64,000 nt of DNA, from contig NZ_JARKMZ010000010.1 of NCBI RefSeq assembly GCF_029360775.1, forward strand, positions 1 to 64,000, given 5' to 3'. Every line of letters begins with the position of its first letter. Position 1 is the first letter of the stretch. Positions 19,640 to 36,009 of this stretch are shown here, piece by piece. Source of the stretch: Daejeonella sp. H1SJ63 (GTDB taxonomy: Bacteria > Bacteroidota > Bacteroidia > Sphingobacteriales > Sphingobacteriaceae). A program made the translations under genes and the position numbers. The notes beneath the pieces are model-generated. The model was not told the origin of the DNA and made no database searches. It saw only the letters and a list, made by a program, of their open reading frames with translations.

Positions 19640-20635
19640 ATGTCTATTCCTCTTATTTCCCTGCGTAATGTTAGTAAACACTATACTGAAGGCTCAGATT
19701 CAGGTGTCAGTGCAATTAGTTTAAGTATTAATAAGGGTGATTTTATTGCGGTTGTAGGAGAAAGTGGCAGTGGGAAAAGTACACTTTTGAAACTGATCTT
19801 TGGATTGCTCAGTCCGGACTCTGGTGAAGTATATTTTAAAGAAACTAAGGTGATGGGGCCGGATGAGAAATTAATCCCCGGACATGATTCGATGAAAATG
19901 CTCAGTCAGGATTTTAACCTGAATGTATATGCAAAGGTATACGAAAATATTGCCTCCATGCTTTCCAATGAAGATATCAAAAGAAAGGAGGAACTTACTT
20001 CAAGAATAATGGATTTGCTTGGTATCAGTCATCTTGCAAATAAAAGGACGGTTGAACTTAGTGGCGGAGAGCAGCAGCGTGTTGCCTTGGCAAGAGCCAT
20101 AATTACCGAACCCGAAGTTTTACTGCTTGATGAGCCCTTCAGTCAGCTGGATGCAGTATTAAAAGCACAATTCCGTACTGATATCAAAAACTTATCTGAA
20201 GAGCTTGGAATTACTGTCATCATGGTCTCTCATGATCCTGTGGATGGTTTGACCCTTGCCGACAGAATGCTTATTCTGAAAGAGGGGAAACTGATAGAAT
20301 CTGGCAGACCTGAAGATATTTATTCAAATCCCTCACATATCTATTCGGCAAGGTTACTTGGAAATGCTTTTTTTCTGCCATCAGATGAGGCAAAGCTGAT
20401 GGGAATTAGATCAAAGAAGGAATTTGTATTGATTTATCCCGAATGGGTGCAACTTAAGAGCAGCTGGAGCAGCAAATCATATTATGTAAAGGATATTTTT
20501 TTCAGGGGCTTTTATGAAGAGCTGCTTCTTGAAAGAGATGGGATCCGGATAGTTGCAATAAATTCCAAACCGGGTATCTATAATAAAGGGCAGAAGGTTC
20601 AGGTAGTAATCAATCGTTACCTCGAATTTGATTGA
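19640..20635 (+). CDS. Orphan ABC transporter ATP-binding protein
   Basis: 331 aa. Complete ABC ATPase: Walker A G40-ESGSGKS-T48, Q-loop Gln90, signature LSGGEQQ (140-146), Walker B LLLDEP (161-166) and H-loop His198 (VSHDP). About 90 residues follow the core and look like a TOBE-type regulatory tail, as in PotA/FbpC-like importers. No permease or binding-protein gene is adjacent, so the partner is unknown. It may be expressed from a promoter within the preceding terminator region, because only 15 bp separate them. Confidence 0.8.
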   Translation: MSIPLISLRNVSKHYTEGSDSGVSAISLSINKGDFIAVVGESGSGKSTLLKLIFGLLSPDSGEVYFKETKVMGPDEKLIPGHDSMKMLSQDFNLNVYAKVYENIASMLSNEDIKRKEELTSRIMDLLGISHLANKRTVELSGGEQQRVALARAIITEPEVLLLDEPFSQLDAVLKAQFRTDIKNLSEELGITVIMVSHDPVDGLTLADRMLILKEGKLIESGRPEDIYSNPSHIYSARLLGNAFFLPSDEAKLMGIRSKKEFVLIYPEWVQLKSSWSSKSYYVKDIFFRGFYEELLLERDGIRIVAINSKPGIYNKGQKVQVVINRYLEFD

Positions 20636-20660
20636 TTTTGTTCAATTGAAGGGTAATAAA

Positions 20661-20691
20661 AAAGGATTATGATAGAATATCACAATCCTTT
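20661..20691. terminator. Bidirectional terminator between ABC gene and leuB
   Basis: AAAGGATTATGATA pairs with TATCACAATCCTTT (13 of 14) around a short loop, flanked by A-rich sequence on the left and T/A on the right. It lies between convergent genes and would end the ilv-leu transcript on the minus strand and the ABC transcript on the plus strand. Confidence 0.8.
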
Positions 20692-20716
20692 AATTATTAA
20701 ATTTTAAGACTTCTGA

Positions 20717-21775
20717 TCAGATATTTTTTGCCAGCCAGTCTCCAACTTCACTGGTTTTGTAAGCTTTGCTTTCTCCTGCAAGGTCTTCTGTTACGATTCC
20801 CTCTGCAAGCGATTTGTTTACAACTTCTCTGATCAGTTCAGCTTCTTCCTTCAGTCCGAATGCATCTTCGAACATCATTGCTGCAGATAATACTGTTGCT
20901 AGCGGGTTGGCAATATCCTTACCGGCAGCCTGCGGATAAGAACCATGTATAGGCTCAAATAAAGAGGTGTGAAGGCCGATCGATGCTGAAGGCATTAATC
21001 CCATTGATCCGGAAATTACTGAAGCCTCATCGGTTAAAATATCGCCAAACAGGTTTTCAGTGATCATTACATCATATGAACTTGGCCATTGTACCAAACG
21101 CATGGCTACGGCATCCACAAATTCGTAAGAAACAGTAACCTCAGGATAATCCTTTTCCATATCCTGAACAGTTTCTCTCCAAAGGCGCGAACTTTCCAGT
21201 ACGTTTGCCTTGTCTACGCAGCATAATCTTTTGGATCTCTTCATAGCCATTTCAAATCCAAGCTTTGCCAGACGAACGATTTCTTCGCGGGTATAAGTAC
21301 AGGTATCAAAAGCTGTATTGCCATTGTCTTTTCTGCCGCGTTCACCGAAGTAAATACCACCGGTCAGCTCACGAAGAATGATCAGATCTGTACCTTCGAT
21401 ACGTTCTCTTTTTAATGGAGATTTATCAATCAGTGAAGGGAAAGTAAAAGTTGGACGAACATTGGCAAATAAGCCCAGTTTCTTACGCATTAATAATAAG
21501 CCCTGCTCCGGACGAACCGGTGCCTTTGGATCATTATCGTATTTAGGATCACCAATTGCTCCAAATAAGATGGCATCAGCAGCCATACAAATTTCATGAG
21601 TTGCATCAGGGTAAGGTTCACCAACAGCATCAATTGCACATGCACCGGTAATTGCTGAAGTCCAGCTGATCTCATGATCAAATTTTTTGGCTACTGCATT
21701 ACATACCTTAACTGCCTGATCAATTACTTCAGGTCCAATTCCATCTCCGGCTAAAAGGGCGATATTTAATTTCAT
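20717..21775 (-). CDS. leuB: 3-isopropylmalate dehydrogenase
   Basis: 352-aa NAD-dependent decarboxylating dehydrogenase that turns 3-isopropylmalate into 2-oxoisocaproate for leucine. The family blocks are present: [11 protein letters not shown] at the N-terminus, [37 protein letters not shown], and [25 protein letters not shown] followed by [12 protein letters not shown]. It is the last gene of the ilv-leu operon and is followed by a hairpin terminator. A 118-bp word-repeat gap separates it from the preceding gene. Confidence 0.95.
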
Positions 21776-21893
21776 TTTTTTTGAATTATACGTTTTATGT
21801 TTTACGTTTTAAGTTATACGTTCTAAGAGTTATTTACCAGTACGTTAATTATATTGCTAACCAACTAATCACTAATTCCTAACCACTAACCAA
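21776..21893. repeat. Word-repeat tract between leuA2 and leuB
   Basis: Degenerate runs of TACGTTTTATGTTTTACG-like words (21785-21827), then CTAACCAACTAATCACTAA-like words (21857-21900) that reach the 3' end of the upstream gene. The tract lies inside the operon transcript and so would be part of the mRNA. Confidence 0.6.
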
Positions 21894-23411
21894 CTAAATA
21901 ATATTAAGCATTTTCTGTGTTGCTTTAATTGCACATACTGTCTGGTCTGAATCAAGACCACGGGTAATGAATTTTTTGGAATTCGTTTCCCAGGTGATAA
22001 TCGTTTCACATAATGCATCCGAATTACTGCCGGGGGCTATGCGCACAGCATAATCGATCAGTTTTGGAAGGTCTGCTTTTTTCTTTGCATACACTTTCCC
22101 TAAGGCTTTCATAAAAGCATCGAACTGACCATCGCCCTGTGCATTTTCTTCAAACCGCTCTCCTTCTATACGAACGCAAATAGTAGCCGAAGGTCTTAAT
22201 CCTTTTGAATGGGTTAAGACATAAGATTCAACAATCACCTTATCAGAAGCAGTAGGGCTGTTCAATACGTCAGAAATGATATATGGCAGGTCTTCCTTCG
22301 TTACGGTTTCCTTCATATCGCCCAGTTCGATAACCCGCTGGGTTACTTTTTTCAGATCCTCATCACTTAGTTTCAGTCCGAGTTCCTGAAGGTTCTTTTC
22401 AATATTCGCTTTCCCTGATGTCTTGCCTAAGGCATAGGTTCGTGTTCTTCCGAAACGTTCAGGCAGAAGATCGTTGAAATAAAGATTGTTTTTATTATCT
22501 CCGTCGGCATGGATACCGGCAGTTTGTGTAAATACATTTTCACCAACAATTGGCTTGTTGGAAGGAATTCGAATACCTGAGAAAGTTTCAACCAGTTTAC
22601 TTACTGTATAAATTGCTTCCTCATTTACATTAATTTCTACTTCCGGAAGGAAATCATTGATTGCTGCAACTGCGCTGGCAATAGATGCATTACCAGCACG
22701 TTCGCCCATTCCGTTAACGGTTAAATGCAGACCATCAGCACCGGCTTTCAGTGCTTCAAGAATGTTGGCATTAGCCAGGTCATAATCGTTATGAGCATGG
22801 AAATCAAAATGAATCTTTGGGTAACGGACTTTAATATCTGAAATGTATTTGAACGTTTCAGTTGGAGTTAAGACCCCCAAAGTATCCGGTAATAATATCC
22901 TTTTAACCGGTTGGGTGGAAAGAAAATCCAGATACTGATAAACGTATTCCGGCGAATTACGCATTCCATTACTCCAGTCCTCAAGGTAGACATTACTGGC
23001 AATACCATGCTCTGCAGCTAATTTGATAACAGCCTGAATTTCTGAAAAATGCTGTTCAGGTGTTTTTTTGAGCTGATGAGTAAGATGGTTCATTGAGCCT
23101 TTGGTCAGTAAATTCTGAACCTTAACACCGGCTTTTGCCATCCATTCAATAGAAACTCCCTGATCAACAAAGGAGAGAACTTCAATCTTATCGGTATAGC
23201 CATGGATACCGGCCCAGTCCATAACAGCTTTTACTGATGCAAATTCTCCTTCGGATACTCTTGCAGATGCTATTTCAACGCGGTCAACCCGTAATTCTTC
23301 CAAAAGGAGCTGAGTGATTGTCAGCTTCTCCGACATGGAAAATGAAACTCCGGAGGTCTGTTCACCATCCCGGAGTGTAGTATCCATTATTTCTATTTTC
23401 CTTTTTTCCAT
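21894..23411 (-). CDS. 2-isopropylmalate synthase paralogue (LeuA2; possibly citramalate synthase)
   Basis: 505-aa DRE-TIM metallolyase-type acyltransferase. Residues 8-16 DTTLRDGEQ and the metal-binding HAHNDYDLA are present, then NGMGERAGNAS and a C-terminal LeuA-dimer regulatory domain (about 370-505). It is a clear paralogue of the canonical LeuA at 25612-27120, but the usual HCHNDLGLA motif reads HAHNDYDLA. Two roles are possible: an alternative isopropylmalate synthase, or a citramalate synthase feeding isoleucine from pyruvate. The absence of ilvA from this operon is compatible with the second but does not establish it. It is 12 bp from leuD, so co-translated in the leu block. Confidence 0.7.
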   Translation of the reverse strand: MEKRKIEIMDTTLRDGEQTSGVSFSMSEKLTITQLLLEELRVDRVEIASARVSEGEFASVKAVMDWAGIHGYTDKIEVLSFVDQGVSIEWMAKAGVKVQNLLTKGSMNHLTHQLKKTPEQHFSEIQAVIKLAAEHGIASNVYLEDWSNGMRNSPEYVYQYLDFLSTQPVKRILLPDTLGVLTPTETFKYISDIKVRYPKIHFDFHAHNDYDLANANILEALKAGADGLHLTVNGMGERAGNASIASAVAAINDFLPEVEINVNEEAIYTVSKLVETFSGIRIPSNKPIVGENVFTQTAGIHADGDNKNNLYFNDLLPERFGRTRTYALGKTSGKANIEKNLQELGLKLSDEDLKKVTQRVIELGDMKETVTKEDLPYIISDVLNSPTASDKVIVESYVLTHSKGLRPSATICVRIEGERFEENAQGDGQFDAFMKALGKVYAKKKADLPKLIDYAVRIAPGSNSDALCETIITWETNSKKFITRGLDSDQTVCAIKATQKMLNII

Positions 23412-23423
23412 GGAGATGGTTCC

Positions 23424-24020
23424 TTATAAAGGAAGATTAGATGCAAATTCCTGTATTTCAGGTTTCATATTGACCAGATAATCGATATCATCGAAACCAT
23501 TAATCATATTGTCTTTCTTGTATGAAGAGATATCAAATGATTCTTTATCTCCGCTTGCAGGAATCGTGATAGTCTGCTCAGGAAGGTTTATTTCAATTTC
23601 TGTTTTCGGATCTTTTTCGATAGCACGGAAAATCTTTTCTGCAAATTCAGGGCTAACCTGTACAGGTAATACGCCAATGTTCAGGCAGTTATTCTTGAAA
23701 ATATCTGCGAAGAAACTTGAAACTACGCATCTGAATCCGTAATCATAAATAGCCCATGCAGCATGCTCTCTGGATGATCCCGAACCAAAGTTCTTACCAC
23801 CAACAAGTATTTTGCCACTGTAAAGCGGGTTATTCAGTACGAATTCGGCCTTTGGAGTATTATCAGAATTAAATCTCCAGTCGCGGAACAGGTTATCTCC
23901 AAATCCAACGCGCTCTGTTGCTTTTAAGAAACGGGCAGGGATGATCTGGTCGGTATCCACATTTTCAATTGGCAATGGAACCGCTGTACTTTTTAATATA
24001 TTGAATTTATCGTATGCCAT
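23424..24020 (-). CDS. leuD: 3-isopropylmalate dehydratase small subunit
   Basis: 198-aa swivel domain of the isopropylmalate isomerase, partner of LeuC. Signatures: VDTDQIIPARFL (21-32), GKNFGSGSSREHAAWAI (75-91) with the substrate-gripping loop, and the C-terminal MINGFDDIDYLV (172-183). The gene lies 32 bp after leuC. The C-terminal block matters for the window because a near-match to it ends the LeuC-like protein at 27163-28188. Confidence 0.94.
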   Translation of the reverse strand: MAYDKFNILKSTAVPLPIENVDTDQIIPARFLKATERVGFGDNLFRDWRFNSDNTPKAEFVLNNPLYSGKILVGGKNFGSGSSREHAAWAIYDYGFRCVVSSFFADIFKNNCLNIGVLPVQVSPEFAEKIFRAIEKDPKTEIEINLPEQTITIPASGDKESFDISSYKKDNMINGFDDIDYLVNMKPEIQEFASNLPL

Positions 24021-24052
24021 TTTTATGTCTTTATGCGAAATATCGCTTGTTA

Positions 24053-25447
24053 TTATAAAAGTGTTCTTGGATCAGTTACAACTCCGGTTACTGCAGCGGC
24101 AGCTGCAACCAGCGGACTGGCAAGCATGGTTCTTGAACCCGGGCCCTGACGTCCTTCGAAGTTTCTGTTAGAAGTACTAACCGCATATTTTCCTGCAGGA
24201 ATCTTATCGTCGTTCATTGCCAGACATGCTGAACATCCAGGTTGACGAAGAGTAAATCCTGCTTCTGTGAAGATATCCAGTAATCCTTCATCCTGAATCT
24301 GCTTCTCAACGATATGTGATCCCGGTACCAGCCATGCAGTAATATGATCTGCTTTCTTTCTGCCTTTAACAATAGAAGCAAAAGCTCTGAAGTCTTCAAT
24401 CCTTCCATTGGTACAGCTACCGATGAATACATAATCCACTTTTTTGCCCATCATCGCTTCACCTTCATGGAAACCCATGTAGTTTAATGATTTTGCATAA
24501 GTTGCAGCTCCACCTTCAACCTCTTCCGCATTCGGAATAGAGTGGGTGATACCCATACCCATACCCGGATTGGTTCCGTAAGTGATCATAGGCTCTATGG
24601 TAGAACCATCAAAAGTATATTCCTTATCAAATACTGCATCAGAATCTGTTTTTAAGCTCTTGTAATAGGCCAGAGCTCTATCCCAGGCTTCGCCTTTCGG
24701 ACTGAATTCACGTCCTTTAACATAGTTGATGGTTGTTTCATCAGGAGCGATCATACCACCTCTTGCACCCATTTCGATACTCAGGTTACAAACGGTCATA
24801 CGGCCTTCCATAGTCATGTTCTCAAATACTTCGCCGGCATATTCCACAAAATATCCTGTAGCACCAGAAGTGCTTAACTGCGAAATAATGAACAATGCAA
24901 CATCCTTAGGCGTTACTCCTTTACTTAATTTGCCATTGATGTTAATTCTCATCTTCTTCGGCTTTGGCTGCATGATACACTGGGTAGTGAGAACCATTTC
25001 AACTTCAGAAGTACCGATACCAAAGGCAATTGCTCCAAACGCACCGTGGGTTGAAGTATGAGAGTCGCCACATACAATTGTTGCACCCGGCTGTGTGATA
25101 CCATACTCAGGACCTACTACGTGCACAATACCATTCTTCTGGTGACCTAAGCCCCAGTAGCTGATACCATACTCTTTTGAATTGGATTCAAGAGCTTTCA
25201 GCTGATTGGCAGAAAGCGGATCAGCAACAGGTAAGTGTTGATTAATTGTCGGGGTATTATGATCTGCTGTAGCGAATGTACGCTCAGGATATAAAACTCT
25301 TAATCCTCTGCTCTTTAAGCCTAAAAAGGCTACCGGGCTTGTCACTTCGTGTACCATGTGACGGTCGATGAATAATACATCCGGTCCGCCTTCGATTTTA
25401 CGAACAACGTGAGAATCCCACACTTTGTCAAACAATGTTTTGCTCAT
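24053..25447 (-). CDS. leuC: 3-isopropylmalate dehydratase large subunit
   Basis: 464-aa aconitase-superfamily protein that, with LeuD, isomerises 2- to 3-isopropylmalate. The [4Fe-4S] ligands are Cys345 (GSCTNGR), Cys405 and Cys408 ([10 protein letters not shown]). [22 protein letters not shown] (127-148) is the conserved active-site segment. Length is normal. It is followed by leuD and preceded by a 164-bp word-repeat gap after leuA. It is the functional member of a pair: the shorter paralogue further up the operon lacks every cluster ligand. Confidence 0.96.
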
Positions 25448-25611
25448 TTTTCTCTTTTTTTATTAGTATTTAGTAGCTGGTACTGAGTAATCAGATTATT
25501 TTAATGTATCCAATACTGAGTATTTACTTATCTCTTAAAACTTAAAACGTACAACGTATAACTTAAAACGTATAACTTAAAACGTACAACGTATAACTTA
25601 AAACCTATCCC
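25448..25611. repeat. Word-repeat tract between leuA and leuC
   Basis: The gap holds TTAGTATTTAGTAGC-like words near 25461-25500, then at least four drifting copies of CTTAAAACGTACAACGTATAA (25540-25607). It is part of the operon transcript. The same ACGTTTTAAG vocabulary, in either orientation, fills two other gaps of this operon. Confidence 0.7.
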
Positions 25612-27120
25612 TTAAACAAACTTATTCAAAGCATCTAAATAGGCATTTGCCGAAGCACGTACAATATCAGTACTGAATCCGTACCCTTTGTAGCTCTTGC
25701 CTTCATTCATAACCAGCATATCCACTTTGCTCACATCATCGCTTCCGCTGTGTATAGAATGAATATTAAATTCCTTGATATTAAAGTTTCTTCCGATGAT
25801 TTTTTCAATTGCTTTAATGGTGGCATCAACCGGGCCGTTTCCATTTGAACTTGCCTCATGGTCAGTGCCTTTGTAATGCAATTTAATGCTGGCTTCAGGG
25901 CTTGCCTGATCGCCACAGCTTACCTGCAAACTCTTGATTGAAAGTCCATCCTTATAATTCGATTCGGCTCTGTCGCCCATAAGCAGCAGGATATCATCAT
26001 CTTTAATTTCTTTTTTGCCATCAGCCATAGTCAGGAAGCGCTCATAAACCTGATCAAGATCGATACGGTCCATTGTATATCCCAAACGTTCAAGATGATG
26101 ATTCAAAGCATGTCTGCCACTTCTGGCAGTCAGGATGATTTCTGACTGATCAATACCCACATCTTCAGGATTAATGATCTCATAGGTTTCCCTGTGTTTC
26201 AATACTCCATCCTGATGAATTCCGGAGCTGTGCGCAAATGCATTTTTTCCTACAATCGCTTTATTAGGCTGAACAGGCATGCGCATCATACGGCTGACCA
26301 TTCCACTCAGTTCATAAAGATGTTTGCTGTTTACCTTATGCGTGAAGTTAAGACTTTTATGCGTTTTAAGGATCATTACGACCTCTTCAAGAGCTGTGTT
26401 CCCGGCACGTTCGCCTATCCCATTGATGGTACATTCTACCTGTCGTGCCCCATTCTGAATACCTGCAATGCTGTTCGCTGTTGCAAGTCCGAGGTCATTA
26501 TGGCAATGAACAGATATGATTGCCTGATCAATATTTTTTACATTCTCTTTCAGGAAAAGAATCTTTTCGCCGTATTGTTCCGGAAGACAGTAGCCGTTAG
26601 TATCCGGAATATTTACAACAGTAGCACCTGCAGCAATAACAGCTTCAACCATTTTAGCCAGGAAAACATTGTCGGCTCTTCCGGCATCTTCGGCGTAAAA
26701 CTCAATATCTTCAACAAAGCTTTTGGCATATTTTACAGCTTCAACGGCACGTTCCAGAATAGCTTCGCGGGTACTGTTGAATTTATATTTGATATGATTA
26801 TCCGAGGCTCCGATTCCGGTATGGATACGCGGCCTTTTAGCAGACTTCAATGCTTCTGCTGCACAATCAATATCTCCTTTATTGGCACGGGTAAGCGCAC
26901 AGATAACAGGTTCACGAATTGCTTTGGAAAGCTCAACCACACTTTGGAAATCGCCGGGGCTTGAGATCGGGAAACCGGCTTCGATGATATCAACTCCAAG
27001 TTTTTCGAGGGCTTTACCGATTTCAATTTTTTCTACGGTAGATAATTGACAGCCCGGGACCTGTTCTCCATCTCTGAGAGTGGTATCGAAAATATAAATG
27101 CGGTTTGGATCGTGTAACAT
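25612..27120 (-). CDS. leuA: 2-isopropylmalate synthase
   Basis: 502-aa LeuA, which condenses acetyl-CoA with 2-oxoisovalerate as the first leucine-specific step. [13 protein letters not shown] (11-23), the metal-binding [32 protein letters not shown], and [17 protein letters not shown] are all canonical. A C-terminal LeuA-dimer domain (about 390-500) is where leucine feedback normally acts. It lies 42 bp downstream of the leuC'-'leuD chimera. Confidence 0.94.
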
Positions 27121-27162
27121 ATTTCTTCTTTTTATAAAGCAAAAGCTTTATCAGGATTCTTT

Positions 27163-28188
27163 CTAATAGGCGATGTTTTGATGCCCTTTATATATGTTGA
27201 GAGCTTTATTGTTCTCAAATTCTTCAATTTCTTCAAGCCGGCTTAGTAAATAGTCGGTATCATTATAACCAGCTATTATTGCAGCTCCTTCAAATGTGAT
27301 CATCCCTGATCTTTCTTCGGATGATCTGGAAGTAATCAGTTTTGAAATGCCGATACCGTAATTACCGGGTCTGATATCTTCAGCATCAAACTCGAGCACT
27401 TCATCATAAACAGAACTTTCATCTGATCTCAGACTTTCCCAAAAACCAGGGATGTCTTCAATGTTTTCACCGTAGGACATGGAATTCTGCTTAAAAATGT
27501 ATTCAAGCGTTGTTTCATCGGGAGCAATCAGCCCGCCAACTGCACCGATCTCTTTGCTTAACCCGCAAAGAGCGATGCGGTCTTCCATACTCAGGTTCAG
27601 GAGGGTATCACCTCCGTATTCAATAAAATAAGCATTAGCTCCATCTGCTGTAATCTCAGATATGAGGTAATGATTGATGTCTTTTACTCCAAGTCCCTTA
27701 GCCAGTTTGCCGTTAACTTCAACTTTCATCCGTTTCGGCTTGTTGATCAGAAAACATTGGGTGGCAAGCACCTGCTCAACCAAAAAATCATTTATGCCAA
27801 TGGCTATTGCTCCGAGAGCTCCAAATACACCGGCATGTTTTGTATCACATATTACTGTTTGTCCGGGGAAAGCAATGAGCGGAAGAGGTTCTCCCGTACG
27901 GTATTCCTCAATTCTTTCCAGATCAAAATCACTGCAATTTCTATGAAGCAGGTCAATTTGAAAACGTGAAAGATCACTGAGAGGAATATGTTCCAATCCC
28001 TTTTCAGTCAATACTATAGTTTGCCCTGGTCTTAAAACCGGAATTCGTCTTTTACGCAGGCCTTCAAAAGCTGCAGGACTCGTTACTTTATTGATAATGT
28101 GAGTATCAATATATAAAGTATCAGGGAACCCGGCATTTCTGCTGACGACATGTTCATTCCAGATCTTATCAAACAGTGTTTGTGCCAT
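27163..28188 (-). CDS. LeuC-like protein lacking the Fe-S half, with a LeuD-like tail
   Basis: 341-aa open frame in the operon between ilvC and leuA. Residues 1 to about 283 align along their length with LeuC 1 to about 300 (shared TLFDKxW start, VTSPxAFxGLRxR, FGALGAIAIGI, NGKLAKG, ANAYFIEYGG, GGLIAPDETT). All three [4Fe-4S] cysteines and the domain that carries them are absent, and LeuC's [12 protein letters not shown] reads CDTKHAGVFG. The end (residues about 297-325: ITFE, IIAGYNDTDYLL, EIEEFE) instead resembles the LeuD C-terminus (MINGFDDIDYLV, EIQEFA). This is what a duplicated leuC-leuD pair would leave after one internal in-frame deletion. Isomerase activity is very unlikely. The frame is intact and the positions conserved with LeuC look selected, so a regulatory or structural role is possible. 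Confidence 0.75.
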   Translation of the reverse strand: MAQTLFDKIWNEHVVSRNAGFPDTLYIDTHIINKVTSPAAFEGLRKRRIPVLRPGQTIVLTEKGLEHIPLSDLSRFQIDLLHRNCSDFDLERIEEYRTGEPLPLIAFPGQTVICDTKHAGVFGALGAIAIGINDFLVEQVLATQCFLINKPKRMKVEVNGKLAKGLGVKDINHYLISEITADGANAYFIEYGGDTLLNLSMEDRIALCGLSKEIGAVGGLIAPDETTLEYIFKQNSMSYGENIEDIPGFWESLRSDESSVYDEVLEFDAEDIRPGNYGIGISKLITSRSSEERSGMITFEGAAIIAGYNDTDYLLSRLEEIEEFENNKALNIYKGHQNIAY

Positions 28189-28301
28189 TGAGTTTTACGT
28201 TGTACTTTTTGAGTTATACGTTATACGTTTTAAGTTTTAAGTATTTGCACTATAGTGATTTACTTTTAACTTACAACGTATAACGTACGACGTATTACTT
28301 A
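28189..28301. repeat. Long imperfect hairpin of word repeats between ilvC and the LeuC-like gene
   Basis: Arms at 28219-28243 and 28261-28285 are 25 nt each and pair with three mismatches; the 17-nt loop contains the perfect palindrome CACTATAGTG (28248-28257). The words are ACGTTATACGTTTTAAG and its complement. Such a stem in the operon mRNA could block exonucleases or alter expression on either side. Confidence 0.75.
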
Positions 28302-29357
28302 CTACTTCTCAGGCTGATTCTCAGGACGCAGACTTCTCACTGCCTGACCTGCCTGCCAGATTTCGCTGTCATGCAAAGTCTTAAGTTCTGCCTCCAGTTT
28401 TACACGGTAATCAGGCTGGCTGTTCAATTTGATAGTACGCTCTGCTTCTTTACCTGTTGCAACGCTTTCATAAAGCTCATCAAATACCGGCTGGGTAGCA
28501 TCACGGAAACGACCTTTCCAATCTAATGCACCACGCTGAGCAGTAGTAGAACAGTTTGCATACATCCAGTCCATACCGTTTTCAGCAACTAATGGCATTA
28601 AACTCTGAGTTAATTCTTCAACAGTTTCGTTGAATGCTTCAGAAGGAGAGTGTCCGTTTCTGCGAAGAGTATTGTACTGTGCTTCGAAGATACCTGCAAT
28701 AGCACCCATCAGCGTACCACGCTCACCTGTAAGGTCAGAGAATACTTCTTTACGGAAATCAGTTTCGAACAGGTAACCTGAACCAACACCGATACCTAAA
28801 GCGATAGCACGGTCTCTTCCTCTGCCTGTAGCATCCTGATGAACTGCAAATGAAGAGTTCAGACCCTTACCTGCAAGGAATAAACGGCGTAATGAAGTTC
28901 CTGATCCTTTTGGAGCAACCAGGATTACATCGATATCAGCAGCTGGGATGATTCCTGTTTGTTCTTTGTAAGTGATACCAAATCCGTGAGAAAAGTAAAG
29001 CGCTTTTCCCGGAGTTAAGTACTTCTTAATTGTAGGCCAAAGAGCAATCTGACCTGCATCTGATAACAGATACTGAATGATTGTGCCTTTTTCAGCAGCT
29101 TCTTCAATTTCAAAAAGAGTTTCTCCCGGTACCCAACCATCAGCGATAGCCTTATCCCATGTTTTTGAGTCTTTACGCTGACCGATAATTACTTTGATAC
29201 CATTGTCGCGCAGGTTTAATGCCTGTCCCGGGCCCTGAACACCATAGCCAATAATTGCTACGGTTTCATCCTTTAAAATTTCACGAGCCTTGTCTAATGG
29301 GAATTCTTCGCGGGTTACTACCTCTTCTATAACCCCGCCGAAATTGATCTTTGCCAT
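28302..29357 (-). CDS. ilvC: Ketol-acid reductoisomerase
   Basis: 351-aa enzyme that converts acetolactate and acetohydroxybutyrate to dihydroxy acids using NAD(P)H and Mg2+. The N-terminal Rossmann fingerprint is GYGVQGPGQALNLRDNG, followed by the cofactor loop IIGQRKDSKTW. Metal- and substrate-binding residues sit in SDLTGERGTLMGAIAGIFEAQY. The length is that of the short class. It follows ilvN by 57 bp in the operon and precedes the 113-bp hairpin gap. Confidence 0.94.
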   Translation of the reverse strand: MAKINFGGVIEEVVTREEFPLDKAREILKDETVAIIGYGVQGPGQALNLRDNGIKVIIGQRKDSKTWDKAIADGWVPGETLFEIEEAAEKGTIIQYLLSDAGQIALWPTIKKYLTPGKALYFSHGFGITYKEQTGIIPAADIDVILVAPKGSGTSLRRLFLAGKGLNSSFAVHQDATGRGRDRAIALGIGVGSGYLFETDFRKEVFSDLTGERGTLMGAIAGIFEAQYNTLRRNGHSPSEAFNETVEELTQSLMPLVAENGMDWMYANCSTTAQRGALDWKGRFRDATQPVFDELYESVATGKEAERTIKLNSQPDYRVKLEAELKTLHDSEIWQAGQAVRSLRPENQPEK

Positions 29358-29414
29358 ATTGTTTTGTTTTTACTTTGTTTTTATTGTTTGTTGAATGTCT
29401 GTTAATTTTTTTGA

Positions 29415-30035
29415 TTACATGGTAAATATTCTCTGACCCTTGTTCAGGTATTCATTTTCTGAAGTCTCTTCGCCCGGCTCTGCTCTTTCAAATTCACGCA
29501 GTTTGCGGTTAAAGCCATCACTGTGCTTGATAATTGCAACTCTTGCACTGCGAACAAATTCAATCAGTCCGAATGGTTGTAATATTTTGATCAGTGCATC
29601 GGTTTCTTCACGATGTCCGGTAGTTTCAAATACGGTATAATCTTTACGGATCACCACCGCTCTTGCACCGTTTTCACGAAGAAGGCGCTCTACACTTGCT
29701 TTTTCAGCAATGATATCAGTTGGCACCTTGTAAAGCGCAAGTTCCTGCCAGATCACTTCTTCATTGGTATTATAATATACTTTCAGTACTTCTACCTGCT
29801 TTTCAATCTGTCTTGACAGCTTTCTAACCACATCTTCAGTTTCGTTTACCACGATATTGAAGCGGTGAATACTCTCAATTTCTGAAGGAGAAGTATTGAG
29901 GCTGTGAACATTGATTTTGCGTCGGGTGAAAATGATCGCGATCCTGCTCAGAAGCCCGATCTGATTTTCAGTGTAAACAGTAATGTTAAACTCCTGTTTA
30001 CCTGACACTTTTTCTGCATTATTCTGACTGCTCAT
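29415..30035 (-). CDS. ilvN: Acetolactate synthase small (regulatory) subunit
   Basis: 206-aa regulatory subunit. The N-terminal ACT domain (about 15-90) reads FNITVYTENQIGLLSRIAIIFTRRKINVHSL, the usual valine-binding fold, followed by a second ACT-like region (about 95-175, with ELALYKVP and ETTGHREETDALI). It binds the catalytic subunit, raises its activity and confers feedback inhibition. It starts 42 bp after ilvB. Confidence 0.93.
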   Translation of the reverse strand: MSSQNNAEKVSGKQEFNITVYTENQIGLLSRIAIIFTRRKINVHSLNTSPSEIESIHRFNIVVNETEDVVRKLSRQIEKQVEVLKVYYNTNEEVIWQELALYKVPTDIIAEKASVERLLRENGARAVVIRKDYTVFETTGHREETDALIKILQPFGLIEFVRSARVAIIKHSDGFNRKLREFERAEPGEETSENEYLNKGQRIFTM

Positions 30036-30077
30036 ATTTTATCTTTTTTCGGTTCGGATAATCTATCTGAACGTTTA

Positions 30078-31814
30078 TTATTTCAATCTGATCTCACTTA
30101 CACTGCAACCCTGTGGTACCATTGGGAATACATTGTTTTCTTTGGTTACCATTACTTCCAGCAGGAATGAACCTTTGGTGTTCAGCATTTCCTCTAATGA
30201 TGAACTAATATCACCGCGGTTTGAAATGCTCTTTCCTTTGATGCCATAAGCTGCTGCCAATGCCACAAAATCAGGACTTTGAATATCTACAAATGAGTAA
30301 CGGTGATCATTGAACAGCTCCTGCCATTGTCTAACCATTCCGAGGAAGTTATTATTCAGAATAAGAATCTTTACATCCACTCCATATTGCATGATTGTTC
30401 CAAGTTCCTGAAGAGTCATCTGGAATCCGCCATCGCCAATTACGGCGACTACATGTCTGTCGGGCGCACCATATTTTGCACCGATAGCTGCCGGTAAAGC
30501 AAAACCCATTGTTCCTAATCCACCACTTGTTACGTTGCTGCGGGTATTATTCAGTTTTGAATATCTGCAGGCAACCATCTGGTGCTGACCAACATCGGTT
30601 ACTATTACAGCATCGCCACCCGTTAATTCATTTAATTTGTTGATCACTTCACCCATGGTAAGCTCTCCGCTCTGAGGCTCAAGTTCAGCTTTGATCACAG
30701 CATCAACTTCCATTTTAGTATACTCCCTGAACTTATTCAGCCAGTCGGTATGCTTTTTCTCTTCAATTAATTCAGTTAAAGCAGGGAGTGTTTCTTTACA
30801 ATCGCCCCAAACCGGAACAGTGGTCTGTACGTTTTTATCAATTTCGGCCGGGTCAATATCCAGATGGATAACTTTAGCCTGTTTTGCGTATTTATCCAAA
30901 CGGCCGGTAACCCTGTCGTCGAACCTCATTCCGATTGCGATGAGTACATCACATTCGTTGGTCAGCACATTTGGACCGTAGTTACCATGCATTCCAAGCA
31001 TTCCTACGTTCAATGGATGGTCTGTAGGAATAGCTCCTGCACCCAACAGGGTCCAGGCAGATGGGATACCGCTTTTCTCAACAAAAGCCTTGAATTCTTT
31101 CTCAGCCTCACCAAGAATTACTCCCTGACCGAATAATACAAATGGCTTCTTCGCCTGATTAATCAGCTCAGCAGCCTGTTTGATATATTCTTTACGGATA
31201 ATCGGTTTCGGACGGTAGCTGCGAATATGATTACATGGAATATAACCGCTGTAATCAAACTTCTGGATCTGAGCATTTTTAGTAATATCTATCAAAACCG
31301 GACCCGGTCTTCCGCTGCGTGCAATATAAAATGCCTTGCTGATTACTTCCGGAATTTCGGTAGCATCAGTAACCTGGAAGTTCCACTTGGTTACAGGTGT
31401 GGTGATATTGATCACATCGGTTTCCTGAAAAGCATCAGTTCCCAGAAGGTGCGCAAACACCTGCCCGGTGATACATACCAGAGGAGTACTGTCGATCATT
31501 GCATCGGCAAGTCCGGTAACAAGGTTAGTTGCTCCGGGACCACTGGTTGCAAATACAACTCCTACTTTACCTGAAGTTCTTGCAAAACCCTGTCCGGCAT
31601 GAATTCCACCCTGCTCATGTCTTACCAGAATATGATTAAGCTTATCCTTGTAGTCGTATAAGGCATCGTAGATCGGCATGATTGCTCCACCCGGATATCC
31701 GAAAATGACTTCAGTACCTTCCGCGATAAGTGCCTCCAAAAGTGCTACAGATCCTGTAACTTCAATCGTCTCTACCCCGCTTGGGTTGCCTATTGCCTGC
31801 TGCTCAATTTCCAT
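30078..31814 (-). CDS. ilvB: Acetolactate synthase large (catalytic) subunit
   Basis: 578-aa ThDP enzyme that makes acetolactate or acetohydroxybutyrate. Visible are the N-terminal VTGSVALLEALIAEGTEVIFGYPGG with the catalytic Glu in VRHEQGGIHAGQGFAR, an FAD-binding middle domain, and the C-terminal ThDP motif starting GDGGFQM and ending ILNNNFLG. It is the second structural gene of the operon, 50 bp after ilvD. Confidence 0.95.
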   Translation of the reverse strand: MEIEQQAIGNPSGVETIEVTGSVALLEALIAEGTEVIFGYPGGAIMPIYDALYDYKDKLNHILVRHEQGGIHAGQGFARTSGKVGVVFATSGPGATNLVTGLADAMIDSTPLVCITGQVFAHLLGTDAFQETDVINITTPVTKWNFQVTDATEIPEVISKAFYIARSGRPGPVLIDITKNAQIQKFDYSGYIPCNHIRSYRPKPIIRKEYIKQAAELINQAKKPFVLFGQGVILGEAEKEFKAFVEKSGIPSAWTLLGAGAIPTDHPLNVGMLGMHGNYGPNVLTNECDVLIAIGMRFDDRVTGRLDKYAKQAKVIHLDIDPAEIDKNVQTTVPVWGDCKETLPALTELIEEKKHTDWLNKFREYTKMEVDAVIKAELEPQSGELTMGEVINKLNELTGGDAVIVTDVGQHQMVACRYSKLNNTRSNVTSGGLGTMGFALPAAIGAKYGAPDRHVVAVIGDGGFQMTLQELGTIMQYGVDVKILILNNNFLGMVRQWQELFNDHRYSFVDIQSPDFVALAAAYGIKGKSISNRGDISSSLEEMLNTKGSFLLEVMVTKENNVFPMVPQGCSVSEIRLK

Positions 31815-31864
31815 AATAAAAATTCTTTATGTTAGAATGCTCTGATCGATGATCTGAACATTAA

Positions 31865-33544
31865 TTATTCTTCGTCAGTAACGCAGCCTTTGCTTGCGTT
31901 CTTTACCTGTTTAAAATATTTAAATAATACGCCGTTCTTTACCGGAGGTTCAGGCTGATTCCACTCTTTTCTCCTTTGTGCCATCTCCTCATCAGAGATC
32001 ATCACATTGATAGAGTTTTTGACGGCGCTGATCTCGATAATATCATTGTCTTTCACGAGTCCGATATTTCCACCTTCAAATGCTTCAGGTGTCATATGTC
32101 CTACAACAAATCCGTGAGTACCGCCTGAGAAACGTCCGTCGGTAATCAGAGCTACCGAAGCACCCAGTCCGGCACCAAAGATGGCAGAAGTAGGTTTCAG
32201 CATTTCAGGCATACCCGGGGCACCTTTCGGACCTACATTACGGATAACTACTACATCTCCGGCTTTAACCTTTCCACTGCTGATACCATGGATCAGTTCA
32301 AATTCTCCGTCAAATACACGTGCCGGACCGGTGAATGATTCGCCTTCTTTACCGCTGATCTTTGCAACCGAACCCTCAGGGGCCAGGTTACCATATAACA
32401 TTTGCAGGTGTCCTGTTTTCTTTACCGGGTTTTCATATGGCAGAATTACGTCCTGAGCACTGAAATCAAGGTCAGCAGCTTCCGCTACGTTCTCTGCAAG
32501 AGTTTTTCCTGTTACAGTTAAACAATCGCCATGGATAAGTCCTTTAGATAAAAGATATTTTAATACCGAAGGCATACCACCAATATCATGAACATCTTCC
32601 ATCATGTATTTACCGCTTGGTTTAAGGTCGGCAATAACAGAAGTTTCATCACTAATCTTCTGGAAATCTGCCAGAGTAAGTTCAATACCTACTGATTTAG
32701 CCATTGCAATCAGGTGTAATACCGCATTGGTAGAACCTCCAAGTACCATCACGGTAACCATGGCATTATGAAATGCCTTTCTGGTCATGATATCTCTTGG
32801 TTTGATATCCTTTTCAAGCAGAATACGAATATATTTACCGGCCTCCAGACATTCCTTCTTCTTTTCCTCACTCAAAGCAGGGTAGGAGGAGCTGTAAGGT
32901 AAGCTCATTCCCATTGCTTCAATGGCCGAAGCCATGGTATTAGCGGTATACATACCACCACAAGCACCAGCACCCGGACAAGCCTGCTTGATGATTCCCT
33001 GATAGTCTTCTTCAGCAAGATTGCCGGCAAGTTTCTGACCAAGAGCTTCAAAAGCCGAAACAATATTCAGTGATTGACCTTTATAATGTCCTGAATGGAT
33101 ACTTCCTCCGTAAACCATGATGGCAGGGCGGTTTAAACGTCCCATGGCCATGATGGCACCCGGCATGTTTTTATCACATCCCGGCAAGGCGATTACACCA
33201 TCATAATAATGTCCGCCACAAACAGTTTCAATCGAGTCGGCGATCAGATCCCTTGATACCAGAGAATAGCGCATTCCTTCTGTACCATTGGTAATACCAT
33301 CACTGATACCAATGGTATGGAACATTAAGCCTACGAGGTCATTATTCCAGACACCTTTTTTTACTACCTGAGCGAGTTCGTTCAGGTGCATATTACAGGT
33401 ATTACCATCATAGCCCATACTTACAATTCCGACCTGTGCTTTTGCCAGATCTTCTGTAGTCAGACCGATCCCGTATAACATGGCCTGAGAAGCCGGCTGT
33501 GTTGGGTCTTGCGTTACTGTTTTACTGAATTTGTTAAGTGCCAT
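31865..33544 (-). CDS. ilvD: Dihydroxy-acid dehydratase
   Basis: 559-aa Fe-S dehydratase that forms the 2-oxo acids leading to valine and isoleucine. Cluster and active-site motifs: [38 protein letters not shown], and the C-terminal [17 protein letters not shown] place the start at the ATG at 33544 ([10 protein letters not shown]). The frame is open to 33607, but those 21 codons run up to the T-run of the attenuator hairpin and look non-coding. It is the first structural gene after the leader peptide. Confidence 0.93.
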
Positions 33545-33605
33545 CTGATCTTTTATTTCTTTCCGTTGCCGGTTTGTATTATTTCTGTAATTAAAATTAG
33601 GTATC

Positions 33606-33635
33606 AAAAAAAAAGCCTTTCTTTCAAAGGAAGGC
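33606..33635 (-). terminator. Attenuator hairpin upstream of ilvD
   Basis: On the minus strand GCCTTCCTTT (33635-33626) pairs with AAAGAAAGGC (33624-33615) with one mismatch, and nine T follow (33614-33606). It lies 62 bp before the ilvD start and 31 bp after the leader peptide stop, which is the arrangement expected of a transcription attenuator. A competing antiterminator was not worked out. Confidence 0.75.
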
Positions 33636-33666
33636 GCCGGATTTTATTTCATGATATATTTAAATC

Positions 33667-33774
33667 TTACGCCTTTATTTTTGAAATGAGCAGAATGATA
33701 TTGAGAATGTAAATAATGAAAAGGACTCCCGGAATGGTCAGTTTTTGAGATATAAAATTCAAGGTACCGTTCAT
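33667..33774 (-). CDS. ilvL: Putative ilv operon leader peptide
   Basis: A 35-codon frame, ATG at 33774 and TAA at 33667-33669. Nine Ile, six Leu and one Val make up 16 of its 35 residues, densest in GVLFIIYILNIILLISKIK near the end. It is followed by the terminator-like hairpin and then ilvD, the classic layout for attenuation by charged branched-chain tRNAs: ribosome stalling on Ile/Leu/Val codons would prevent the terminator. Because the peptide is so hydrophobic, a small membrane protein is the alternative. Confidence 0.7.
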   Translation of the reverse strand: MNGTLNFISQKLTIPGVLFIIYILNIILLISKIKA

Positions 33775-34058
33775 TTTTTGGCAGATGTGTTTTCCTTATT
33801 TATTTATTTCTCAATTTAAGGTCTTAGCTTTTAAGTATCAATAGCGAGTGTAATTATTTTAAATTAGAATATTATTTTGTTTTAAATAAATATACAGAAT
33901 TATCTATCGAAAATTTTAAAAATGTATATTTTTAATGCTGAGCTTGTAGACCAAAACGGTTTTTGGTTTTCGGTTCAAAAAATCTGAGGGTCTTCGGAAA
34001 GGTTCATTTTCTTCCTGAAATCAGAAAATCATCGAAAAAAAATTAAATTTTCAGGCAT
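33775..34058. other. Intergenic region holding the ilv operon promoter
   Basis: This very AT-rich gap between atpC and the ilv leader must contain the ilv promoter, but I find no exact TAnnTTTG box on the minus strand. A small hairpin (ACCAAAA with TTTTTGGT, near 33952-33969) is the only clear structure. No gene is seen. Confidence 0.4.
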
Positions 34059-34090
34059 AAAAAAACCCTTCAGCTTTCAAGCAGAAGGGT
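34059..34090 (-). terminator. Terminator of atpD-atpC
   Basis: ACCCTTC and GAAGGGT arms (34065-34090 overall) enclose a GC-containing top; on the minus strand the stem is followed by seven T (34065-34059). It is 20 bp after the atpC stop. Confidence 0.85.
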
Positions 34091-34109
34091 CTTCTTTTTC
34101 TGGTATGGT

Positions 34110-34358
34110 TTAAGACTCCTGCGTTCCTTCTGCCAGTACCATGATGTTATTATTCAGGACCTCAATTACTCCTCCTTTAATGAAGATAGTTTCTTCGGTA
34201 TTGTCCTGTCTGATAATTACTTTTCCGTCTTCCAGACTTGAAATGATCGGGGCGTGATCCTTCAGAACTTCGAAAGATCCCATTGTTCCCGGAACGGTTA
34301 CAGATCTTACTTCTCCTTCGAATACTTTTTTATCAGGTGTTAATATTTCTAATTTCAT
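34110..34358 (-). CDS. atpC: ATP synthase F1 epsilon subunit (short form)
   Basis: 82-aa epsilon subunit, consisting essentially of the N-terminal beta-sandwich (LEILTPDKKVFEGEVRSVTVPGTMGSFEVLKDHAPIISSL). The C-terminal helical hairpin of longer homologues is missing, which is normal in Bacteroidota. It is linked to atpD but separated from it by a 79-bp hairpin tract. The other ATP synthase genes are elsewhere. Confidence 0.93.
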   Translation of the reverse strand: MKLEILTPDKKVFEGEVRSVTVPGTMGSFEVLKDHAPIISSLEDGKVIIRQDNTEETIFIKGGVIEVLNNNIMVLAEGTQES

Positions 34359-34437
34359 TTTTTTTGCGTATTGTGTAGTGCGTAGTGCGTATTGAGTTTG
34401 CTTTCGCTATACTTAATACGCTATACTCAATACTAAA
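34359..34437. repeat. Word-repeat hairpin between atpD and atpC
   Basis: Arms at 34368-34384 and 34417-34433 (17 nt, 14 pairing) built from the words GTGTAGTGCGTA and TATACTCAATAC. It lies in the atpDC transcript and could set the relative amounts of the two subunits (3 beta to 1 epsilon in F1); that effect is speculative. Confidence 0.65.
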
Positions 34438-35976
<1,539 letters not shown>

Positions 35977-36009
35977 TTAAGCCCGTTTTATAGGGCATTT
36001 TTCGGTCTG

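Follow-up and report, generated by a model that had tools for sequence, protein, structure and literature searches.

A chimeric leuC'-'leuD gene (CHIM) was identified inside the ilv-leu gene row of the 64,000-nt stretch of Daejeonella sp. H1SJ63 DNA that was analysed (the window). The protein is under purifying selection, as is shown below, and by its anatomy and its place in the trees it most likely descended by deletion from an ancestral leuC-leuD pair of another type (type A) than the complete pair which now stands beside it (type B). The explanation that fits best, with a probability of roughly 0.55, is that CHIM is a type-A-derived pseudoenzyme, kept by selection, which would act through protein contact.

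On the reverse strand the genes followed the order ilvD-ilvB-ilvN-ilvC-CHIM-leuA-leuC-leuD-leuA2-leuB (Table 1), where ilvD, ilvB and ilvN are what we take these three genes to be from their sequences, without a family scan. In the rest of its own genome CHIM matched only the adjacent LeuC (39% identity) and a distant aconitase-like frame. The best model for leuA2 was (R)-citramalate synthase CimA (683 bits, cut-off 950), and because CimA was nearest, the sequence suggests that the type-B LeuCD may be used for isoleucine as well as leucine synthesis. No match was obtained from the Rfam scan of window positions 20000-36000 at the gathering threshold. A short palindrome-rich repeat was observed in three of the ilv-leu intergenic gaps (window 28188-28300, 25534-25603 and 21792-21825) and, elsewhere in the genome, at about nine sites, with 18 matches in all.

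Table 1. Coordinates of CHIM, its parts and its neighbours in the window, and of two short frames in other genomes
Feature	Coordinates	Strand	Remarks
CHIM, chimeric leuC'-'leuD gene	27163..28188	-	341 aa + stop, ATG start; intact orthologues in 9 other genus genomes
LeuC-derived part of CHIM	27328..28188	-	residues 1 to about 287 by alignment; aconitase-fold domains 1-2, type-A lineage
LeuD C-terminus-derived part of CHIM	27202..27327	-	residues about 288-329, including GYNDTDYLL; profile scores, hhalign
CHIM junction	27268..27339	-	residues 284-307, predicted disordered (pLDDT < 50)
CHIM segment 253-285 (LRSDESSVYDEVLEFDAEDIRPGNYGIGISKLI)	27334..27432	-	less variable than the same segment in type-A LeuC
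ilvC, upstream border of CHIM slot	28302..29357	-	TIGR00465 314 bits, cut-off 226
leuA, downstream border of CHIM slot	25612..27120	-	TIGR00973 676 bits, cut-off 599
leuC type B, complete, presumed working large subunit	24053..25447	-	TIGR00170 639 bits, cut-off 560
leuD type B, complete, presumed working small subunit	23424..24020	-	TIGR00171 181 bits, cut-off 116
leuA2, second leuA-like synthase	21894..23411	-	nearest CimA, below that model's cut-off
leuB	20717..21775	-	TIGR00169 445 bits, cut-off 353
short ilvN-like frames	L088 6938-7180 (80 aa); L090 10553-10816 (87 aa)		type-A genomes G067, G077

The Pfam Aconitase model (PF00330) covered residues 7-274 of CHIM with 173.2 bits against a gathering threshold of 28.7, which placed it in the superfamily. 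The NCBIfam LeuC models aligned with residues 1-275, corresponding to about the first 60% of the models, and the scores lay under both cut-offs (220.9 against 560.25 for TIGR00170, 241.2 against 510 for NF004016), so CHIM does not belong to LeuC proper. The first-pass annotation of this DNA had put the LeuC homology at about 283 residues, and the alignment bore this out with only a slight extension. It had also read the end of the protein as resembling the C-terminus of LeuD, and this likeness held up against a shuffled control. All ten orthologous tails scored 19.5-24.8 bits on the type-A LeuD profile, at positions within 155-197 of 198, and among 10,000 shuffled tails, 8,098 of which yielded a score, the highest value was 8.4 bits; the homology is not a matter of chance. 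Thus the C-terminal 40 or so residues connect all ten tails with LeuD, and no Pfam match to the Aconitase_C or swivelling domain (PF00694), the other mark of LeuD, was found in CHIM. The type-B LeuD profile gave 9.7-16.3 bits for the same tails, with type A higher in 10/10, and hhalign returned 96.6% for type-A LeuD, 74.3% for type-B LeuD and 0.3% for type-A LeuC. MAFFT placed the tail near YMGLHDNDTLL of LeuC, but a simple continuation of LeuC was rejected, as the LeuC profiles gave the real tails -1.3 to -3.5 bits where they scored at all (7 and 9 of 10).

A hand-typed consensus of the tail was used as query in 300 genomes of the order, and 123 of them were matched at E <= 0.01. Four of these matches were CHIM, four were LeuC-sized frames (query residues 1-57), two were others and the rest were LeuD-sized frames with weak E values of 2e-5 to 0.01; in four genomes checked against their operons (G173, G014, G002 and G039) the match fell at the end of leuD. 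Strong matches in this order survey came only from the genus of the window (4 genomes), and in 296 genomes of the phylum the only strong match of the tail was the window's own genome. With the whole CHIM as query, 11 matches at E <= 1e-75 were obtained in 247 genomes of the class, among which only the window's frame was short (343 against 467-508). The order, phylum and class surveys are samples of each rank, and in these samples CHIM was confined to one genus.

Intact CHIM, 333-341 aa long, was present in 10 of the 20 genus genomes including the window's, and the nine others were 57-65% identical to it, so orthologues of about equal length, which the first-pass annotation had looked to as a check, do exist. 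The nearest CHIM among named records were those of two Daejeonella sp., D. lutea DSM 22385 and a MAG titled Pedobacter schmidteae. Four named loci (L033-L036) duplicate G092, G134, G129 and G042 among the ten and are not extra cases. In the other ten genomes CHIM was frameshifted in one (G144), had lost 232 codons in frame in another (G124), which left a 105-aa ORF, and was missing from a third (G086), where a 177-nt gap without any gene separated ilvC from leuA; the slot of G149 was unreadable since the contig starts just before leuA. Downstream of the slot leuA-leuC-leuD-leuA2 was found in all ten CHIM genomes (in G114 with leuA2 cut by the contig end) as well as in G144, G124 and G086. Full-length LeuC-LeuD of type A took the place of CHIM in four genomes (G067, G139, G077 and G021), directly after ilvC in three of them, while the contig of G139 ends there. 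The last two, G056 and G153 (68% complete), had only aconitase-like matches and no LeuC. As G056 is 99% complete, it may lack leucine synthesis. CHIM is dispensable and its role is not essential, because it was broken or absent in three of the 13 type-B genus genomes with a readable slot (G144, G124 and G086).

For the same ten genomes the codon model gave omega of 0.115 for CHIM, 0.013 for LeuC and 0.027 for LeuD, with synonymous sites near saturation across the CHIM branches. The dN/dS is well below 1, and a retained function other than catalysis, as the first-pass annotation had supposed, is likely. In one set of eight pairs, three had no computable dS and one was near saturation (dS 3.1). 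Five close CHIM pairs gave omega of 0.065, 0.083, 0.129, 0.173 and 0.234, and none of their bootstrap upper limits exceeded 0.36. In the plain nucleotide alignment 13 of the 14 internal gaps were multiples of three and the single 1-nt gap was near the 3' end of G042; the codon alignment, from the way it is built, can only have gaps of whole codons. The leftover codons of the gutted copy in G124 gave omega of 0.84 (0.34-3.9, from small numbers of changes, 17 and 5) against its close relative G114, and the same codons gave 0.14 (0.07-0.27) between the intact copies of G114 and G129. Against the more distant G129 the remnant of G124 gave 0.16 (0.08-0.29), a value that includes the time before the deletion. 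The frameshift of G144 would be recent or an assembly error, since its two CHIM pieces still gave 0.16-0.17 against three relatives.

Among the rivals of the selected pseudoenzyme, a slowly decaying remnant, in which the remaining constraint would come from nothing more than selection against products that misfold or stick, deserves some weight though it is unlikely. It is consistent with the losses in three of 13 readable slots and with an omega about nine times that of LeuC. The same omega, at 0.115 over branches near synonymous saturation, argues against it, together with ten intact frames that share a mean identity of 66%, the newly invariant residues described below, and the fact that relaxed omega was seen only in the gutted G124 copy. 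In addition, about 4% of single changes lead to a stop and the tree length was 7.7 changes per codon, so drift alone predicts stops in the order of 100, though the ten CHIM were counted because they were intact.

The catalytic equipment of LeuC was lost. C345, C405 and C408 in domain 3 of the window's LeuC, which we take to be the holders of the 4Fe-4S cluster, were invariant in the 11-sequence alignment. The region that carries them was missing in the window's CHIM and in four other orthologues aligned with LeuC, and none of the ten had space for it, in line with the first-pass annotation, which had described all three as lost. The motifs DHN, GIVHV, GDSHT and GTNP, presumably catalytic by comparison with aconitase, were deleted or lost in CHIM as well. 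Gaps common to 10/10 CHIM removed HN of the DHN motif, the GIVHV-GP loop and about YGT of the TYGTNP stretch (GTNP loop), and the GDSHTSTH stretch was replaced or variable across the orthologues. Without domain 3 and the Fe-S cluster, and with most motifs of the active site gone, CHIM should not work as an isomerase; with its catalytic residues lost and its protein under purifying selection, it answers to the description of a pseudoenzyme. Of 100 positions invariant in 43 LeuC, CHIM keeps 37 and mostly keeps 9; it has lost or varies at 42, lacks 10 through deletion and has switched 2. Invariance in LeuC is overstated here because 35 of the 43 (22 type B, 11 type A and 2 others) belong to the same family as the window, and the 8 outgroup sequences were a chosen subset of the named loci. 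Another 32 positions were newly invariant in CHIM.

Constraint on CHIM has shifted away from the active site. Per-site variability of CHIM correlated with that of LeuC at rho 0.12 (11 type-A sequences) and 0.07 (all 43 LeuC), against 0.41 between type-A LeuC and 10 type-B LeuC of the genus. In a plain stretch-by-stretch comparison CHIM was somewhat less variable than type-A LeuC at residues 1-23, 145-179 and 187-203. Eight segments, picked after that comparison had been seen, were put to a circular-shift test, in which 91-137 came out as relaxed (fraction 0.007) and 253-285 as tightened (0.032), both uncorrected, and the six other segments, including 1-23 and 145-179, did not stand out.

AlphaFold predicted CHIM with a mean pLDDT of 78.0 and a pTM of 0.80 from 19 aligned sequences (the window and the named loci), and the predicted fold is partly built in because this input was rich in LeuC. 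The best Foldseek match was the large subunit of IPM isomerase, 4kp1 (TM 0.67 by query length). Residues 284-341 had been singled out for structure prediction by the first-pass annotation; in the model the body was confident, 284-307 was disordered, and two helices followed (308-315 and 318-327), with mean pLDDT of 89 for 311-320 and 79 for 321-330. When the tail was predicted alone, a short helix and one long helix over residues 310-337 were obtained (pLDDT 72-83). In the full model this long helix is interrupted, a hint that the tail may pack on the body of CHIM.

The survival of domains 1-2 in the predicted fold could also speak for sensing of a pathway intermediate, a role that the first-pass annotation had offered, with the ligand bound in the cleft of the former active site. 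Such sensing through the old site is improbable, because the conserved motifs of the cleft are deleted in 10/10 or, as GDSHTSTH, variable. Moreover, 91-137 was the most clearly relaxed segment, and the retained tail lacks the LeuD-side substrate ligands that we assume from aconitase.

The frame might also have stayed open only for ribosome cover between ilvC and leuA, which would keep transcription from ending early. CHIM lies inside the gene row with a gap of 42 nt to leuA, and the deletion in G124 kept the frame, as such an anti-polarity filler would require. It predicts omega near 1, however, and with 0.115 observed, a frameshift in G144 and an empty slot in G086, this explanation was set aside as very improbable.

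Concerning the origin of CHIM, two types of LeuC were distinguished among the matches listed in 201 genomes of the family, type A with at least 267 bits and 45-55% identity to CHIM and type B with at most 235 bits and 39-46% identity, the type being read from operons in about 30 genomes and elsewhere from the score only. The type-A operons that were read had the order ilvD-ilvB-ilvN-ilvC-leuC-leuD, and the type-B operons leuA-leuC-leuD-leuA2, in several cases directly after ilvC. The ilvN-like frame of two type-A genomes was short (Table 1) against the 206 aa of the window's. Coexistence of two sets also occurs elsewhere, since two genomes of other genera (G014 and G032) had two full leuC each and a third, G007, had a broken second one. 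This second leuC of G007, also from another genus, was split into two frames overlapping by a few bases (G007:C1:3341522-3342393, L126), and it is possibly an independent decaying copy.

In a tree of 53 sequences and 268 columns CHIM, which has a long stem of 0.54, fell in one clade with type-A LeuC (node support 59/71). Forcing it together with the type-B LeuC of the genus was rejected (dlnL 110.8, AU p 8.5e-7), as was forcing it inside all type B (dlnL 56.3, AU p 7e-16); nesting in type A against a sister position to type A gave dlnL 7.2 and AU p 0.067. The constrained tree of CHIM plus type A is the best tree itself, so its AU value is meaningless. In the ilvD tree there was a grouping with the three type-A members of the genus that it contained (support 100), but in the ilvB and ilvC trees there was no such grouping and leuA fell in a mixture; since these trees disagree, either the operon is a mosaic or the trees are weak. 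CHIM most likely came from a type-A pair because its slot between ilvC and leuA is the one that in relatives holds a type-A leuC-leuD in intact form. The first-pass annotation had proposed a duplicated leuC-leuD with one internal deletion, of which the large deletion across an adjacent pair survives as the likely founding step; descent from a duplicate of the adjacent pair was not borne out, as body and tail both belong to the other LeuC/LeuD type by tree, AU test and profiles. A duplicate of the adjacent type-B pair would explain the gene order and the shape of the chimera, but it was rejected as barely credible on the AU test, on 39% identity to its own LeuC against 45-55% to the type-A LeuC of relatives, and on a tail that fits type-A LeuD better in 10/10.

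The type-A-derived pseudoenzyme kept by selection could thus have arisen as follows. An ancestral type-A leuC-leuD would have stood between ilvC and leuA, and in the ancestor of this branch of the genus a type-B set (leuA-leuC-leuD-leuA2-leuB) would have taken over catalysis. As anatomy and trees suggest, a deletion with one end within leuC and the other close to the end of leuD would have fused the remainder in frame; either the takeover or the deletion may have come first. CHIM would then have been kept by selection on the protein, as the low dN/dS and its relaxation in the one gutted copy indicate. It probably acts through protein contact, and most simply its retained subunit-like surfaces might bind LeuC, LeuD or another enzyme of the operon, the partner being a guess. 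The effect on LeuCD assembly that the first-pass annotation had put forward is possible and agrees with the observations. More tentative is the narrower proposal that the two-domain pseudoenzyme now controls its own replacement, be it the enzyme or the operon; it might, for example, occupy LeuD or LeuC through the subunit surfaces that it retains.

A superseded gene set is usually expected to vanish. Here, it seems, the superseded enzyme took up a second role that does not involve catalysis, and the genus shows the stages side by side, namely the type-A pair, the chimera, the frameshifted chimera, the gutted chimera and the empty slot. This provides a testable case of how a deletion can give a former metalloenzyme a different role, and it can be tested too whether an Fe-S enzyme of two subunits has drawn a regulator from its own past. 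No report of a LeuC'-'LeuD chimera or a LeuC pseudoenzyme was found in the titles and abstract openings of the open PMC literature; absence there is not absence from print.

Compared with known systems, CHIM shares with LeuC (TIGR00170/NF004016) its residues 1-275 and the same predicted fold (4kp1, 4kp2), and differs in lying far under the family cut-offs and in lacking domain 3, the cluster cysteines and the active-site motifs. With LeuD (TIGR00171/PF00694) it shares the last 40 or so residues including GY-D-DY-L and IEEFE, whereas the Aconitase_C domain (PF00694) is missing. IRP1 and IRP2 are non-catalytic proteins of the aconitase family, full-length, four-domain and RNA-binding. They resemble CHIM in having the aconitase fold without a working cluster, and IRP structures were among the fold matches of CHIM, but they have four domains where CHIM has two domains and a tail.
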